Source: a virus
Length of the DNA stretch: 21,581 bases
Reading direction: 5' to 3' (one strand)
Virus record (IMG/VR): IMGVR_UViG_3300032047_001778
Span: 1-21,581 of that record
Notes under the pieces: generated by a model
Told to the model about the DNA's origin: nothing
The model's input: the letters and a program-made list of their open reading frames with translations, nothing else
The model's database searches: none
Program-made: the position numbers and the translations under genes
Shown here: positions 1,626-18,768 of the stretch, piece by piece
Position numbering within the stretch: the stretch's first letter is position 1
Layout: the number at the start of each line of letters is the position of its first letter

Positions 1626-4337
1626 ATGTCTTTAAAGAAGCATGTAGAAAAAAAGATCTACATGGTTACACTTAAGAAAGGTGTAGACAGTGTAGCATTT
1701 GCCAATGACATGGAAACACCAGGTGGTTCTTTACACATTCCAGATAGATCAGTAGGTGTACACAATCCAAGACCAGAATCAAGAACAACAGAATATTGGC
1801 TTACAGAATCAGAAAAGAATTTAGTCAGCAATGACGAAAGAGTATTAGCGGTTGAACTCAACCCTAAAGATGCAAACTTAGATGTCTCAGAAAATTCAAT
1901 AATTGAACAGACAGGTTTGTTTGCACGTAATTCAGCAAACACAGCCACAGACTTGAACTGGGGACTTCTACGTCTTGTAGAAGGATCGAATAGAACCAAT
2001 TGGGGATATTCTACCACAGAAATTAACGACACAATATCATTTAATGCAACTGGTCGGAATGTAGATTTAGTTATTTGCGATGGTGACGGTATATACATCG
2101 GACATCCTGAATACAAACAACCGTCAGGACAAGACACCGATGATGGTTCTGCGGAACGCATCGTGCAATATAATTGGTATCAACACAATCCGGCTATCAC
2201 AGGCGGGTCGGCGGGGAACTACAGTTATAGCAATCCTGGAAGTTACCACGCTAATCACGTAATGGGTACAGCGGGAGGAAACAGACAAGGATGGGCAAGA
2301 GATGCGAATTTATATAATCTTTTCTACTATGCTGGCGCTTCTGGTAATACTAATTTTCCTTACGTGTTCGATTACATTAGACAATTTCACGCGAACAAAT
2401 CCGTCAACGGAAGTACAGGAATTAAAAATCCAACAGTCGTCAACAACTCATGGGGAATGAGTATATTTGGATATCAATGGAGTTTTGATGCTATTGATGC
2501 TGTAACCTTTAGAGGTACAAGATTCACACCAACTGGTACTACCACTTATAATGGTACTTCAGGTGTGTTTACTTCTGACACAAGAATAGGAACTTTTACA
2601 GCAGATCCAGAAAACATTTCACAACGTATTACAACTTCAGGAAGTGAAGGAACGGTCGGTGGTGACTTTAATGCCATACCAACAGGCTTTGTAAGAACAG
2701 GTGGAGAAATTGAACTCAGTTTAAATGTTTTACCTAATGCAAGTTACACAGCAACTATACAAGGACCTGCAACTATTAACTATAAACACAATGTTAGTTC
2801 ACAAGGAATTACAGGTATATCAGATATTGATCTTACAGTTACAGTTCAAGATTCAAGCAGTGCTACGGTTCAAACTGAATCAGATAGTGCAACATCAGTT
2901 GATGGTGGATTTGCTGAAGTTAATATTATAAGTGGAAATATTAGTTTACCTAACAACGAACAATACAGTATTACTTGGCAATCAACTGTTACAGAAGGTA
3001 CTGATCCAACATCGGCGGCACTGTTAAGATGTACACTTATAGGTTATCAAGGTGGAAGTCCATCAGCAACGGTTACAAGTCTTGGTACAAATATACCTAT
3101 TGCTTCTACAACAGGATTGACGGCAAGTGTTACGCCTACAACTGGTGGTAATGATGACGGATACTGGACACTTACTGTACCGTTCAATGTAACATTTTTA
3201 AATCAAAGTTCACCAACTATCTATATGGGTACAAACAGTTATCTTACATTTGGTGGTGGAGCGACAACTTATTCTGGTATCGATGAGAATACTCCTAACT
3301 TTCCAAAGGTTATGGTAACAGCAGAAGACTGTAGTTGTCAAAGAATTTTTTATGGTACTTCAGGTACAGTTGGTAGTAGAATTTATAGATTAGTATGGGA
3401 AGGTAATGCAAGTACAAGTGGTACATTAGGTTCGCCTACTATAAGATATGAATATAAATTTTACGAAGCAACACCTACACAGATTGATTTAACAATTGAA
3501 CAAAATGGTAACAAACAATCATCTGGTTCTTTTACAACAGCACAACTTAATGGTTGGGGATTTATAGCAGGTCAACGTATTCCTGTAAGAGTTGCGGCAC
3601 TTGATGCAGACATTGAAGATGCCATAGACGAAGGTGTTATTACAATAGGTGCGGCTGGCAACGGTCAATGGAAACATGATGTGCCGGGTGGTCCTGATTG
3701 GGATAACACATTTGAAATGAGCGGCAATACATATTATTATATGCGTGGAACTTCACCTACAGCAAATGACGATGATGTAAACGGAACATACGATATACCT
3801 AATATTTGTGTTGGTGCTACTGACACAGGTCTTACACAAGATACTGACAGTGTGAGAAAAGATAGAAAAGTATCATTTAGTGACTGTGGTCCTGGCGTTG
3901 ATATTTACGCTCCTGGCACATCTATCATGTCAGTTTTGAATACAAGTTATTCAGGTGGTGGAACAACAGATCCGAGAAGCGGCGTTACGCCCAGTTATAA
4001 AATTGGAAAGATTTCAGGTACAAGTATGGCAAGTCCACAGGTAGCAGGATTGGTTGCATGTTTAATGGAAACATACCCACACTACAAACAAGAAGATGTT
4101 AAGGCATACATAACAAGCAAGTGGGCAGTAGATGGACAACTATATGATGCAGTATCTACAGACGATCCAACAGATACAGATGACTTACAAGGTTCACCTA
4201 ACAAACACGCAAAGTACAATTTCGAACGTCCTTTGACTGGTACAGTACACCCTAAAAAAGATTATAATTTAAGACCTACAGCAGGTGCATTATATCCAAG
4301 GGCAAAACGTACAGTTAGGAAGAGACCACCAGAATAG
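1626..4337 (+). CDS. Subtilisin-like (S8) serine protease of the virion, with large insertion
   Basis: A 903-residue protein carrying the subtilase catalytic set. The Asp motif is VICDGDG (Asp152), the His motif HANHVMGT (His208, compare HGTHVAGT), the oxyanion Asn motif GAAGNG (Asn679) and the Ser motif GTSMASP (Ser800). Between residues about 285 and 655 the fold is interrupted by roughly 370 residues of Thr/Ser/Gly-rich, beta-type sequence, so the catalytic residues are far apart. Residues 1-110 may be a propeptide-like or attachment region; the C-terminus is basic (RAKRTVRKR). GGAGG at 1615-1619 is well placed for the start, one base after the previous stop. No signal peptide is seen, which suits assembly into the particle rather than secretion. 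Its place among virion genes suggests a structural protease that either matures fibres or cuts host surface proteins; the target is unknown. Confidence 0.8.
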   Translation: MSLKKHVEKKIYMVTLKKGVDSVAFANDMETPGGSLHIPDRSVGVHNPRPESRTTEYWLTESEKNLVSNDERVLAVELNPKDANLDVSENSIIEQTGLFARNSANTATDLNWGLLRLVEGSNRTNWGYSTTEINDTISFNATGRNVDLVICDGDGIYIGHPEYKQPSGQDTDDGSAERIVQYNWYQHNPAITGGSAGNYSYSNPGSYHANHVMGTAGGNRQGWARDANLYNLFYYAGASGNTNFPYVFDYIRQFHANKSVNGSTGIKNPTVVNNSWGMSIFGYQWSFDAIDAVTFRGTRFTPTGTTTYNGTSGVFTSDTRIGTFTADPENISQRITTSGSEGTVGGDFNAIPTGFVRTGGEIELSLNVLPNASYTATIQGPATINYKHNVSSQGITGISDIDLTVTVQDSSSATVQTESDSATSVDGGFAEVNIISGNISLPNNEQYSITWQSTVTEGTDPTSAALLRCTLIGYQGGSPSATVTSLGTNIPIASTTGLTASVTPTTGGNDDGYWTLTVPFNVTFLNQSSPTIYMGTNSYLTFGGGATTYSGIDENTPNFPKVMVTAEDCSCQRIFYGTSGTVGSRIYRLVWEGNASTSGTLGSPTIRYEYKFYEATPTQIDLTIEQNGNKQSSGSFTTAQLNGWGFIAGQRIPVRVAALDADIEDAIDEGVITIGAAGNGQWKHDVPGGPDWDNTFEMSGNTYYYMRGTSPTANDDDVNGTYDIPNICVGATDTGLTQDTDSVRKDRKVSFSDCGPGVDIYAPGTSIMSVLNTSYSGGGTTDPRSGVTPSYKIGKISGTSMASPQVAGLVACLMETYPHYKQEDVKAYITSKWAVDGQLYDAVSTDDPTDTDDLQGSPNKHAKYNFERPLTGTVHPKKDYNLRPTAGALYPRAKRTVRKRPPE

Positions 4338-8474: not shown

Positions 8475-9032
8475 ATGCTTATAAAAACAGACTCTAACGG
8501 AGTTCCCACATTTACGAATCAAAACTTAATCGATATGATCTATACAGGATCTATTGACAAGTGTCATATTGTTCTTTGTGATAAGAATGATGAACTTGAA
8601 CAGTTTAACAAGTGGGCAAAGGAATTTGGTAATCCTGAATTACAATTTTATGTTCCGTTAGATGTAGATCAAAAAACATTTGATGGTGTATGCCAAAGTG
8701 ATTGGTTTATGCCAAAGAAGTATAAAGAGATCAATCCAAATAGATGGTTAGAAACTAAACTGATGGAAGAACTACAAATTGATGATCCTGTAGCACTTCG
8801 AGATACACCCGAATGGATTAGGGTAACTGATGAACTTACAGAATATTTTGGTCGTGGTATGTATCCATTATTACAGTATATGATATATTTGGTAGACTTC
8901 ATGCGTGAGAATAATATAGTATGGGGCGTAGGTAGAGGATCAAGTGTGGCAAGTTATGTGCTATATTTGATTGGTATTCACAGAATTAACTCAATTCACT
9001 TTGACCTGGACTGGCACGAGTTCCTGAGATAA
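8475..9032 (+). CDS. DNA polymerase III alpha (DnaE)-like fragment lacking catalytic residues
   Basis: A 185-residue protein whose C-terminal third matches the DnaE region just before the active site: VDFMRENNIVWGVGRGSSVA, then SYVLYLIGI, aligns with the DnaE segment containing GPGRGSGAGSLVAYAL, and FDLDWHEFLR matches FDLLFERFLNPER. The protein stops there, before the DFDxDF catalytic aspartates. The N-terminal PHP domain is also absent. Downstream DNA does not continue the DnaE match in any frame, so this looks like a genuine short protein rather than a frameshift. Residues 1-110 are not recognisable. It cannot be a polymerase by itself. It might bind a host replisome subunit or nucleotide, but that is speculation. 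It follows the small gene at 8241 and has its own sigma70-type promoter. Confidence 0.65.
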   Translation: MLIKTDSNGVPTFTNQNLIDMIYTGSIDKCHIVLCDKNDELEQFNKWAKEFGNPELQFYVPLDVDQKTFDGVCQSDWFMPKKYKEINPNRWLETKLMEELQIDDPVALRDTPEWIRVTDELTEYFGRGMYPLLQYMIYLVDFMRENNIVWGVGRGSSVASYVLYLIGIHRINSIHFDLDWHEFLR

Positions 9033-15230: not shown

Positions 15231-15773
15231 ATGAAAGACGTATTAGAAGTTATACAAAACATTCAGGGCATTTACGAAAGCGATACCGCATTTACGGTTC
15301 TAAAAGACTTTGAAAGAGTGCTTGACGAACTGGATTTATATGTGTACGATAACTGGGAAGATGGCGAATTAGTTGCTGGTCCTAAAATTGGTAGACATTG
15401 GGTTACTTGTGCGTTTATGTGGCCAAGAGATGCAATGCCTGATCCTATGGGCGGTAAACGTTTATTAGATTATGACTGTAAAGTATCATATAAAAAAGAT
15501 CATATACTAAAACCAAGAAAGATTCGTAAGCCAGATGATATTAGACCTGGCACTAAAAAAGGCAAACTTGACCGTGAAGAAATTTGGGTCGTAGAAATTA
15601 ATATGCCTAAGAAACTTATTGTAGACATTTACAGTGGATACAATGAAATGGTTGATATTAACACTGAGCCTGGACAAGCACCAGGAGCCGCACCAGAGGC
15701 AGAGCCAGCAGAAGCAGGCGTTGAAGCAGGTACAGGTGCAGGCGCAGAGACTCCGCCAGAAGGAGCAGTATAA
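15231..15773 (+). CDS. Conserved marine T4-like phage protein, probably virion-related
   Basis: A 180-residue protein. Residues 1-145 form the conserved part (an N-terminal helix with LKDFERVLDELDLYVYDNWE, then TCAFMWPRDAMPDPMGGKRL and a WVVEINMPKKL strand), which I recognise as a recurring marine myophage family without a named function. From about residue 147 the protein becomes an Ala/Pro/Glu/Gly-rich low-complexity tail, likely disordered. The gene follows a late promoter and overlaps the next gene by TAATG, so it is a late product, plausibly structural or a particle-assembly factor. No catalytic motif is visible. Confidence 0.6.
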   Translation: MKDVLEVIQNIQGIYESDTAFTVLKDFERVLDELDLYVYDNWEDGELVAGPKIGRHWVTCAFMWPRDAMPDPMGGKRLLDYDCKVSYKKDHILKPRKIRKPDDIRPGTKKGKLDREEIWVVEINMPKKLIVDIYSGYNEMVDINTEPGQAPGAAPEAEPAEAGVEAGTGAGAETPPEGAV

Positions 15774-16483
15774 TGGGATTAAGAAAAGGCGATTTAGTTA
15801 GTCTTGTTGACCGTATTTTTGAAATAGATGCTTTCAAAAGTAAAATGGGTGATGACAAAGACATTGTTACCTTAAGTTTTTCAACTAAGAATGAAGGTAG
15901 TGCAAAGGACTTAGAAAACTTTATTGAAAAAGGTTACCCTTTTGTACTTGACGCTGATGCAACCAACGGTGAACAACGTGATGGTATGTATAAAGTGTTT
16001 GTTGAAATTGAAAGAAGCAAAGATGCTCCAACACAGATACATGAAGTTATAGACGGAGTAGCAAAGATTGCCAGTTTAGAAGGCATGAAATTTAGATATT
16101 ACAAAGGCTTTAAGAGCCACGATTGTAATGAGGCTAATTTAGCCGAGAAGGTCCCGACAGACCATGACGCATATGAAATCAAAGTTAATGAAAGTAATAT
16201 GGATAATTATAAAAACTTCTTTAGCAAGAGTTATGCTGAAGAAATTGATATTATAAACGAGAACCAATTACGTATTAAGAATACATATATGGATCCGATT
16301 TATCTCAATATAGTCGATTTCGCACCCACTGAGAAGGTAAATATCAATGAGTCATTAGATGTCAACGGCTTTGCTGAAGTCATCTACTTAACAAAGTACT
16401 TAGGTGATTATGACATTACCAAGTACGGTAAAAAACTGGTACTTGAACACAATGGGTACTCACTAATTTGTAAACGAGGATAG
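15773..16483 (+). CDS. Conserved marine T4-like phage protein, probably virion-related
   Basis: A 236-residue acidic protein with mixed alpha/beta character and no recognised enzyme motif. AGAAGGAG at 15758-15765 is a strong ribosome site, and the ATG overlaps the previous TAA. Two similar-looking halves may exist (a VFVEIERS strand near residue 80 and a YEIKVNESNMDNYKNFFS segment near 140, each followed by helix then strand), which could mean an internal duplication of a small ferredoxin-like fold; this is only an impression. It is always likely to be co-expressed with the 15231 gene and precedes the endolysin. I cannot name its T4 counterpart. Confidence 0.55.
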   Translation: MGLRKGDLVSLVDRIFEIDAFKSKMGDDKDIVTLSFSTKNEGSAKDLENFIEKGYPFVLDADATNGEQRDGMYKVFVEIERSKDAPTQIHEVIDGVAKIASLEGMKFRYYKGFKSHDCNEANLAEKVPTDHDAYEIKVNESNMDNYKNFFSKSYAEEIDIINENQLRIKNTYMDPIYLNIVDFAPTEKVNINESLDVNGFAEVIYLTKYLGDYDITKYGKKLVLEHNGYSLICKRG

Positions 16484-16489
16484 AACCAA

Positions 16490-17017
16490 ATGGCAAAAGA
16501 TAATTTTAGAAAGTGTTTAGAAGTTATTCTACATCACGAAGGCGGGTACGTAGATCACCCTAAAGATCCAGGTGGCGCAACGAACTTAGGCGTTACCAAA
16601 CAAACTTACGAAGACTGGATGGGCAAAGTAGTTACTAAAGATAGAATCAAAGAACTAACTATCGACGATGTAACACCTATCTATAAAAAGAATTACTGGA
16701 CTGCAATTATGGCAGAAGATATTCCAGCAGGTTTAGACTTATGTGTATTCGACATGTGTGTAAACGGTGGACGTCACAGAGCAACAAAAATGTTACAACA
16801 ATTAGTTGGAGCAACAGTTGACGGTTGGATTGGTCCAAACACTATTGCTAAGACTCAAGCATTCTGTGAAGCGAAAGGTGTTACTGCCGCTATTGAAGGA
16901 TACCAACAAATTAGACAAGACTTTTACGAGTCATTAAAAACTTTTGAAACGTTTGGTAGAGGATGGACACGCAGAGTAAACGAGACCAAAGAGACAGCGA
17001 TATCAATAGCCAAGTAA
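16490..17017 (+). CDS. GH108-type endolysin (N-acetylmuramidase)
   Basis: A 175-residue peptidoglycan hydrolase of the glycosyl hydrolase 108 / PG_binding_3 architecture. The catalytic Glu17 is in HHEGGYVDHPKDPGGATNLG, the family hallmark. The C-terminal half has VGATVDGWIGPNT and a helical region that fit the peptidoglycan-binding domain. It cleaves the glycan backbone of the cell wall to end infection. No signal peptide or anchor is visible, so a holin should be needed to let it reach the wall; a holin candidate is at 19153. GAGGA upstream of the ATG is the ribosome site. A small out-of-frame gene starts inside its 3' end (16963). Confidence 0.88.
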   Translation: MAKDNFRKCLEVILHHEGGYVDHPKDPGGATNLGVTKQTYEDWMGKVVTKDRIKELTIDDVTPIYKKNYWTAIMAEDIPAGLDLCVFDMCVNGGRHRATKMLQQLVGATVDGWIGPNTIAKTQAFCEAKGVTAAIEGYQQIRQDFYESLKTFETFGRGWTRRVNETKETAISIAK

Positions 17018-17124
17018 GTTGTAAAAACTGCGGCCACGAATATCACGAAGGTTCACTATACAAAGAATTTGCAGACGGCGACGGTAAGATGATTACGATT
17101 GAAGTTTGCAAACAAGGAAGATGA
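16963..17124 (+). CDS. Small Cys/His (zinc-ribbon-like) protein
   Basis: A 53-residue reading frame that starts inside the endolysin gene in another frame and fills the gap to the ACP-like gene. It contains SCKNCGHEYHEG (Cys20, Cys23, His25, His28) and a late Cys49, a possible metal site. Its TGA (17122-17124) overlaps an ATG at 17121, as expected for a real gene in this packed operon. The start is uncertain: GGTAGAGG directly abuts the ATG, which is too close for a good ribosome site. Function unknown. The lysis-operon setting suggests a late product. Codon conservation in relatives would decide whether it is real. Confidence 0.45.
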   Translation: MDTQSKRDQRDSDINSQVSCKNCGHEYHEGSLYKEFADGDGKMITIEVCKQGR

Positions 17125-17339
17125 TGGAAAAAGTAGTCAAAGCCATAGCAGAACATTTAGACGTTGACGTATCTAAAGTCATACCAGAAGCATCTTTGAT
17201 AGATGACTTAGGTGCTGACGAGTTTGATATTATTGAGTTAGCAGTTGCGATACAAGAAGCAACAGGCAAAACCATTTCAAGTGAAGACGAAGCCAACGTA
17301 AAAACAGTTGGCGACTTTATTAAACTGGTAGAAGCATAA
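17124..17339 (+). CDS. Acyl-carrier-protein-like protein lacking the phosphopantetheine Ser
   Basis: About 71 residues with clear ACP architecture: an N-terminal helix (EKVVKAIAEHLDVD), the DDLGAD turn, a recognition helix (EFDIIELAVAIQEATG) and the closing VGDFIKLVEA helix. Normal ACPs have D-S-L here, with the Ser carrying 4'-phosphopantetheine. This protein has D-E-F, so the Ser is replaced by Glu (GAC GAG TTT in the DNA). It therefore cannot carry acyl groups in the usual way. It might bind fatty-acid-synthesis enzymes or holo-ACP synthase as a decoy, or serve a different role. AAGGA at 17114-17118 favours the second of two adjacent ATGs. It lies between the endolysin and the spanin-like genes and overlaps the next ATG by TAATG. 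Confidence 0.72.
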   Translation: MEKVVKAIAEHLDVDVSKVIPEASLIDDLGADEFDIIELAVAIQEATGKTISSEDEANVKTVGDFIKLVEA

Positions 17340-17827
17340 TGTTTGGATCAATTAAAATAGCAATGGTTTTAATTATGTTGGCAGGTGCTGGCGGAGGCTT
17401 TGTATATGTTAAGAATATAAAAGCAGACTTGGCTACATCAGAAGCAAACAATCTAAAGTTAGAACAAAGTGTTGCAAGTCAAAAGGCTGTGATAGAACAA
17501 CAGGCTAATGACTTTAAAAAAATCCTCGAAATAAACAAAGATCTTGAAAAAACAAATAAAACGCTTGCCGCAGAGTTTGCCGCTTTGGACAAACGTTTTA
17601 ATAAAATTAATGGTCGTGGTGAAGTAAGAGACTTAGGTGATCTTGCTGTAAAAAGATCAGAGTCAGTAGAACGTGTTGTAAACAATGCTACCAAGAAAGC
17701 AATGAGATGTGTAGAAATTGCTATGGGAGCAGAACTAACAGAGAAGGAAATTAATGCTACACTGAAATCAGAAATCAATTCTGAATGTCCGAGTATAGCA
17801 AATCCAAATTATGTACCGTATAAGTAA
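17339..17827 (+). CDS. Inner-membrane spanin-like protein (Rz type)
   Basis: A 162-residue protein with one N-terminal membrane segment (about residues 5-24, IKIAMVLIMLAGAGGGFVYV), then a long helical, coiled-coil-prone region (about 25-95) and a periplasmic C-terminal part with two Cys residues. This is the build of an i-spanin such as lambda Rz, which links to an outer-membrane lipoprotein and fuses the two membranes at the end of lysis. Its last 17 bases overlap the start of a lipoprotein gene in another frame, as in many Rz/Rz1 pairs. Identification rests on topology and context, since spanins diverge quickly. Confidence 0.65.
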   Translation: MFGSIKIAMVLIMLAGAGGGFVYVKNIKADLATSEANNLKLEQSVASQKAVIEQQANDFKKILEINKDLEKTNKTLAAEFAALDKRFNKINGRGEVRDLGDLAVKRSESVERVVNNATKKAMRCVEIAMGAELTEKEINATLKSEINSECPSIANPNYVPYK

Positions 17828-18179
17828 CATATTAATTATTGCCTTACTTGCTGTTGCAGTGAGTGGGTGTTCAACTGTGAGAGAACTACAAATCTTTGAA
17901 CAAGAAGTTCCAAGAGAGAAGTTAAACTTATCACATCCTGAAGCAGTTAAGATGGAGCCTTTACAATGGGTAATCATCACAAGCGAAAACGCAGAAGAAG
18001 TATTTGCTAAACTAAAAGAACAAGGTAAAGATCCTGTACTGTTTGGTTTAAGCGATAAAGACTACGAATTCCTTTCTAAAAACTTTGCACAGATCCGTGC
18101 ATACATGATCAAGCAACGTCAAGTAATTGATCAATACAAAGAATATTACGAATCCGAAGACGAAAAGACTGAAAAGTAA
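17811..18179 (+). CDS. Lipoprotein, probable outer-membrane spanin partner
   Basis: A 122-residue protein with a lipoprotein signal: MYRISNILIIALLAVAVSGC, Cys20 being the lipidated residue. The mature part is helical and charged (ENAEEVFAKLKEQGKDPVLF, then MIKQRQVIDQYKEYYESEDE). It is larger than lambda Rz1 and lacks its proline-rich stretch, so it is not a textbook o-spanin, but its position overlapping the i-spanin-like gene argues for that role. No good ribosome site lies before the ATG, suggesting translational coupling. A second lipoprotein gene follows at 18185; which of the two pairs with the membrane protein is open. Confidence 0.6.
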   Translation: MYRISNILIIALLAVAVSGCSTVRELQIFEQEVPREKLNLSHPEAVKMEPLQWVIITSENAEEVFAKLKEQGKDPVLFGLSDKDYEFLSKNFAQIRAYMIKQRQVIDQYKEYYESEDEKTEK

Positions 18180-18184
18180 AAACA

Positions 18185-18352
18185 GTGAGACATATATTGA
18201 TCCTGTTGGTGCTGTTCGTATTGGCTTCCTGCACGAAAACAACCTGTAATTTAAAACCTGGTATTGAAATAGATACTGAAAGCATAGAGAAGATAGAGGA
18301 TCTAAGAGATCCTAATATAACACCTAAGGGCGAAGTCGCCTGTACTTTCTAA
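18185..18352 (+). CDS. Tiny lipoprotein, possible second o-spanin
   Basis: A 55-residue reading frame from GTG 18185. It has a textbook lipobox: MRHILILLVLFVLASC, with Cys16 lipidated. The mature part of about 40 residues has two more Cys. Size and topology fit Rz1-like o-spanins. The ribosome site is weak, and GTG is the only reasonable start. It begins five bases after the preceding lipoprotein gene, and its TAA overlaps the stop of the convergent iscU gene within the sequence CTAA. No homologue is recognised. Possible alternatives are a toxin-like entry-exclusion lipoprotein or a superinfection-exclusion factor. Confidence 0.6.
   Translation: MRHILILLVLFVLASCTKTTCNLKPGIEIDTESIEKIEDLRDPNITPKGEVACTF
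18329..18340 (+). terminator. Possible GC-rich hairpin at the operon end
   Basis: GGCG-AAGT-CGCC forms a tight 4-bp GC stem with a four-base loop, followed by T-rich sequence (TGTACTTTCT). It lies inside the last codons of the lipoprotein gene, between two convergent genes, where a terminator is expected. The stem is short, so this is tentative. Confidence 0.25.
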
Positions 18353-18768
18353 ATACTGTTGTGTTTACGATGTTTTGTCTTGTCTGCCCAATCCTGGATA
18401 GCACGTTGTATGGCTTCTTCAGCCAATACAGAACAGTGTATCTTTATAGGCGGTAAGTCTAAGAAATCAGCGATTTCTTTATTGCTTATTTTTACTGCTT
18501 CGTCAAGTGTCTTACCTTTCAAGAACTCTACAAAAGTTGTTGAACTTGCAATAGCACTACCGCAACCATATGTTTTGAATTTTACATCAACAATGCGATC
18601 GTTATCATCTAATTTTAGATCCAACTTCATAACGTCACCACAAGCAGGTGCTCCGACCATGCCTGTTGCAACCATTGGATCATTAGGATCAAAGCGACCC
18701 ACACCGTGTGCTTCTGGGTGAGCAAGAACAGAATTGAATCTGTCTACTACTTCTTTTGAATATGCCAT
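18349..18768 (-). CDS. iscU: IscU-type iron-sulfur cluster scaffold
   Basis: A 139-residue protein, full length for IscU. All ligands are present: Cys43 and Asp45 in GAPACGDVMKL, Cys69 in YGCGSAIASS, His111 and Cys112 in KIHCSVLAEEA. The LPPIK motif (105-109) that binds the HscA chaperone in bacterial IscU is kept. IscU is the scaffold on which IscS and partners assemble Fe-S clusters. It is on the minus strand with its own late-type box (18802-18809). Only an insertion near residues 14-24 (an extra LAHPEAHGV segment) differs from the usual N-terminus. It could use host IscS and HscAB to support phage or host Fe-S proteins; the phage's own ferredoxin at 11679 is an obvious client. Confidence 0.9.
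   Translation of the reverse strand: MAYSKEVVDRFNSVLAHPEAHGVGRFDPNDPMVATGMVGAPACGDVMKLDLKLDDNDRIVDVKFKTYGCGSAIASSTTFVEFLKGKTLDEAVKISNKEIADFLDLPPIKIHCSVLAEEAIQRAIQDWADKTKHRKHNSI

Follow-up and report, generated by a model that had tools for sequence, protein, structure and literature searches.

Why would a phage maintain a gene for an acyl carrier protein (ACP) that lacks the very serine to which the phosphopantetheine cofactor is attached? We met this question in a stretch of 21,581 nucleotides that makes up positions 1 to 21,581 of the IMG/VR virus record IMGVR_UViG_3300032047_001778 (hereafter, the window), where a small ACP-like open reading frame (ORF) lies among lysis genes (Table 1). 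ACPs are defined by their Ser-linked cofactor, and a viral family of this kind is a natural test of an ACP without it.

Fold and site residue of the window protein

We examined the 71-residue ORF, whose translation is MEKVVKAIAEHLDVDVSKVIPEASLIDDLGADEFDIIELAVAIQEATGKTISSEDEANVKTVGDFIKLVEA; a second in-frame ATG is found at 17121, ahead of the start used here. The protein has a pI of 4.1 and a net charge of about -11. It matched the Pfam PP-binding domain PF00550 (1.5e-7; 32 bits against a cut-off of 20.8), the ACP family PHROG 5934 (1.2e-9) and ACP sequences of the PDB (2.4e-13 for Aquifex 2ehs), each time over almost its whole length. The AcpP equivalog model TIGR00517 gave 50.6 bits, under its cut-off of 70.45. 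The AlphaFold2 model, for which the family alignment served as input, had a mean pLDDT of 95.1 and contained four helices (residues 2-12, 33-47, 53-57 and 62-70), and Foldseek matched it to Helicobacter pylori holo-ACP with a TM-score of 0.91-0.94 and an rmsd of about 1 A. Residue 33, a Glu that aligned with the Ser of DSLD in Aquifex 2ehs, opens helix II in this model according to DSSP. The original prediction of an intact ACP fold in which D-E-F stands for D-S-L was thus borne out by profiles, structures and alignment alike.

Table 1. Features of the lysis region of the window and the evidence for each.
Feature	Position	Strand	Evidence
Virion structural protein, upstream, same gene run	15231..15773	+	PHROG 12928 2.6e-27
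Virion structural protein, upstream, same gene run	15773..16483	+	PHROG 13138 3.1e-24
Endolysin, glycosyl hydrolase 108	16490..17017	+	PF05838 3e-28; PHROG 315 endolysin 7e-49
Small CxxC ORF ('zn53'), start codon uncertain; directly 5' of ACP gene	16963..17124	+	Neighbour retained in related phages
Ser-less ACP-fold protein, 71 aa	17124..17339	+	Profile matches, AF2 model, Foldseek
Codon 33, GAG = Glu, at the phosphopantetheine Ser position (E. coli Ser36)	17220..17222	+	Sequence and alignments
Codon 34, TTT = Phe; Leu in carriers (DSL)	17223..17225	+	Sequence comparison
Inner-membrane spanin (Rz-like)	17339..17827	+	PHROG 739 Rz-like spanin 1.8e-10
Outer-membrane lipoprotein spanin (Rz1-like), overlaps inner spanin	17811..18179	+	PHROG 812 Rz-like spanin 1.2e-10

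Site identity and selection across viral relatives

The first viral scan recovered 26 close relatives, all 26 with Glu or Asp at the site followed by Phe. Profile scans then reached relatives in uncultured marine phages from 100% down to about 27% identity, and all 26 members of the family alignment matched PF00550. In the Ser-less viral forms the site was occupied by E, D or, in one lineage, P, and never by Ser, while the residue after it was F, M or I, as opposed to L in carriers. A few distant matches of the viral scans were conventional Ser ACPs from other phages (L027, L270). A separate sample of 80 records was seeded with the neighbouring inner spanin to avoid seeding bias, though it shares some records with the earlier scans: 26 of the 80 had an ACP-like ORF within about 3.5 kb (18 of them distinct), and all 26 had E, D or P at the site and none had Ser (the site was read by eye in the four ORFs of the HLDGDEI variant).

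The codon at the site varied among relatives (GAA, GAG, GAC or GAT). Since Ser was absent from every relative at this locus and the codon itself varies, the replacement is due neither to chance nor to sequencing error, and a private mutation is ruled out as well. In a tree from which the site column had been left out, we counted at least nine changes among E, D and P and no reversion to Ser; the Pro codons were one transition away from Ser in 10 out of 10 distinct contexts. The original prediction would have lost its ground had relatives carried Ser here: none did inside the family, whereas more distant ACPs of cultured phages keep it. Among the papers searched, none reported a Ser-less phage ACP.

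Helices favour Glu, Asp and Pro in their first turn. The presence of Pro in one lineage weakens the idea of the acid as a specific mimic of phosphoserine or phosphopantetheine, so helix-start stability explains the Glu no worse than charge mimicry does, and the replacement seems to stabilise the fold no less than it mimics a charge.

Loading at another residue was also considered. Members do have other serines (e.g. Ser17 and Ser52 in the window protein), but none is conserved across the family alignment, and the Pro lineage offers no side chain for attachment at the site. We found AcpS in 0 of 50 records of the phage group and ketosynthase in 0 of 19, and each ACP-bearing record held a single ACP, so that a second, canonical ACP acting as the real carrier was not found in them; many of these records are fragments, and the absence of AcpS or extra ACP genes is therefore suggestive rather than proof. 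With neither transferase nor ketosynthase in the phage records searched, a carrier loaded elsewhere is highly improbable. On sequence grounds, the Ser-less family cannot carry acyl chains conventionally, as had been predicted for the window protein. One phage of the same clade (L101), whose lysis locus lacks the gene, encodes a conventional Ser ACP elsewhere (L140:1480-1899, minus strand), which forms the C-terminus of a 139-residue ORF.

Most Ser-less viral forms fell into two supported clades, A (the window's) and B. The model of clade B showed the same ACP fold with high confidence, with the site again at the start of helix II (DSSP). Two independent losses of Ser were considered: the clades are separated on the tree, yet a single origin was not rejected (AU p 0.375); the deeper branching of the ACP tree is unsure, as it relies on only 76 columns.

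The gene is under purifying selection, with a median dN/dS of 0.19 over 164 pairs. A functionless, decaying ACP remnant would fit the loss of the defining residue and the frequent absence of the gene, but this dN/dS value, the high-confidence fold in both clades, a site that stayed within E, D and P over nine or more changes, and the wide spread of the family make such decay highly improbable.

The docking surface was kept in part. D35 and D38 (E. coli numbering) were kept in both Ser-less clades, and so was E41, though as D in much of clade B. In clade A, positions M44, E47, E49, F50 and E53 were mostly replaced (E47 by Q, E49 by A, E53 by K or T), and pocket or carrier positions were changed too (F50 to T, A59 to E or G). 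Over helix II and the loop after it, the median net charge was -3 in clade A, compared with -6 for clade B and -7 for carriers; within the window's clade the segment ranged from about -2 to -5, against about -7. The predicted acidity of the recognition helix therefore held for D35, D38 and E41 but failed for E47, E49 and E53 in the window's clade. As the second half of the acidic patch of helix II is largely lost there, members of that clade may dock less strongly to standard fatty-acid enzymes.

The lysis cassette and its phages

The position beside the lysis genes, also part of the original prediction, was confirmed: the ACP gene shares nucleotides with both neighbours, its ATG with the stop codon of the CxxC ORF and its own stop with the start of the inner spanin (TAATG). 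The ACP gene is translationally coupled within the endolysin-spanin cassette. From position only, we infer that it is expressed late; a promoter scan gave no excess over shuffles. The order vir180 - vir236 - endolysin - CxxC ORF - ACP - inner spanin - outer spanin was common to related uncultured phages. In a diverged group (L173, L174, L196), the ACP was directly 3' of vir236, and neither the endolysin gene nor the CxxC gene gave a match. The Pro-type ACP was located after the spanins, and the L220/L253-type among T4-like virion genes, which were recognised by eye.

In close relatives (L059, L060) the ACP gene was cleanly missing between intact neighbours, and the neighbouring genes were mostly 75-95% identical. 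This clean absence indicates that the gene is accessory cargo and no obligate part of the lysis machine. In L077, a FAD-dependent, tryptophan-halogenase-like ORF (recognised by motif only, at about 5.6-6.9 kb) stands between the CxxC ORF and the inner spanin, in the place of the ACP, so the slot takes varied cargo. Elsewhere in the window we observed a protein of 903 residues (1626-4337) that has a subtilase (Peptidase_S8) domain and lies among tail-fibre-like genes, and a 185-residue ORF (8475-9032) that matches part of DNA polymerase III alpha (PF07733) and is far shorter than a polymerase. A search against a defence-gene library returned no match.

The DNA of the whole window had no match among named phages. 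By clamp loader, the nearest named phages were the jumbo phages PA5oct-like (56%) and Atu_ph07 (47%), and records of the phage group are up to 268 kb long. The closest cellular ACPs that we found were the AcpPs of SAR11, which had DSL in all those read. The phage ACP is possibly of alphaproteobacterial origin, and a phage contig with the Ser-less form that was binned in a Pelagibacter MAG, together with the 46-51% identity to SAR11 AcpP, gives a hint of SAR11 as the host.

Possible functions and comparison with known systems

The viral family is widespread and selected, and it keeps the fold and never the Ser. A protein whose fold and part of whose docking face are under selection, but which is unloadable, is best read as a docking protein. 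We tentatively favour, at somewhat less than even confidence, a captured ACP selected as a permanently 'apo', non-covalent docking protein of the lysis cassette. Under this proposal, a phage would have captured an ACP whose phosphopantetheine Ser was then lost, and selection would have kept the fold as a permanently 'apo' docking protein. Made from the lysis cassette late in infection, the protein would act without covalent attachment and would most likely fill the site at which one or more of the host's ACP partners bind ACP; an acyltransferase of lipid synthesis, AcpS or another hub enzyme are candidates. Its effect on them could be that of a dominant-negative or a regulator. According to PMC4736557, which cites Keating 1995, accumulation of apo-ACP inhibits glycerol-3-phosphate acyltransferase and over-expression of a Ser-to-Ala ACP suppressed growth; by analogy, the Ser-less phage ACP is plausibly dominant-negative on host ACP partners. 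The further claim that a dedicated unmodifiable ACP is a late effector, capturing host ACP-dependent enzymes and stopping or redirecting lipid synthesis around lysis, is possible but doubtful. The family may expose a route by which phages control host membrane synthesis around the time of lysis.

The ACP fold could also serve a partner unrelated to lipid synthesis. It may have been re-used as a structural or regulatory adaptor that binds either a host machine or a protein of the phage and leaves fatty-acid synthesis unaffected. The host machine would then recognise the ACP regardless of its modification, like MukB in E. coli, whose ATPase is stimulated by apo-AcpP as strongly as by holo-AcpP (PMC8602292). 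The lower helix II acidity of the window's clade, the sub-family that sits among virion genes and a Ser-less ACP domain in a Streptomyces nSTAND-TPR protein are all in line with an adaptor, but phages with otherwise intact virion and lysis neighbours can do without the gene, and this speaks against an obligatory part in phage structure; we regard the adaptor as rather unlikely.

A role in Fe-S cluster assembly, in which the protein would bind host or phage IscS/IscU and tune assembly as ACP does with IscS, was suggested by an IscU-like gene in the window (18349-18768, minus strand), antisense to the lysis cassette, and by IscS-like and IscU-like genes just after the spanins of another phage (L180:5055-6275 and from 6279). 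D35 and D38, which are kept here, mediate the binding of E. coli ACP to IscS, but that binding needs Ser36, and stimulation needs acylated ACP (PMC13343975). IscU was present in 3 out of 50 records, all among the 35 that bear the ACP, a result that chance gives about one third of the time; the association is not significant, the partnership was rejected, and this role is very unlikely. The IscS-like and IscU-like genes make up a phage Fe-S assembly set.

We compared the family with ACPs of cellular and viral origin. Bacterial AcpPs (PF00550; TIGR00517; SAR11, Brucella, Aquifex, H. pylori) share the four-helix fold at about 1 A rmsd, match the Ser-less phage form over its full length and have D35, D38 and E41 in common with it. 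The phage form differs in the absence of the phosphopantetheine Ser (E, D or P instead), in the change of L37 to F and in its lower helix II acidity. The ACPs of cultured phages (PHROG 5934) are likewise small phage-encoded proteins of ACP fold, but the nine examined (Vibrio 10AMN, 1.063.O, 1.187.O, Bajun, PhiXhv-15, P-HM1, ctuI7215, R6L and ZS04) all keep Ser and have different gene neighbourhoods. A chromosomal match in Salmonella was left out of the comparison. Where a phage gene bears the label 'acyl carrier protein', the site residue should be checked before the gene is treated as a fatty-acid auxiliary metabolic gene.

Scanning the genome collection twice for a single sequence pattern, we could confirm the Ser-less form in only three places: in the phage contig of the Pelagibacter MAG, in an actinomycete MAG gene and in a Streptomyces multi-domain protein. 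The actinomycete gene (L225:5866-6288) is ACP-like, has Glu at the site (LGADELG) and lies downstream of a plsX-like frame; its MAG has a Ser ACP elsewhere (L275). The Streptomyces case is an nSTAND_NTPase5-TPR open frame (L226:2596-6216) with a C-terminal ACP domain (PF00550, 1.9e-10; LVDDLGADELDMVE), which has Glu at the Ser position and is otherwise a good ACP domain. Unlike the phage protein, this domain is cellular, is C-terminal in a 1207-residue open frame and has Leu as the next residue, and its loss of Ser is probably independent of the phage loss.

Laboratory ACPs that cannot be loaded, or are not loaded, are the remaining counterpart: the obligate apo-ACP Se-ACP S39A and apo-AcpP likewise have the ACP fold. 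Those are engineered or transient, with growth suppression shown (PMC4736557), whereas the phage protein is natural; were the late-effector claim true, the phage protein would be the natural counterpart of laboratory apo-ACP toxicity.
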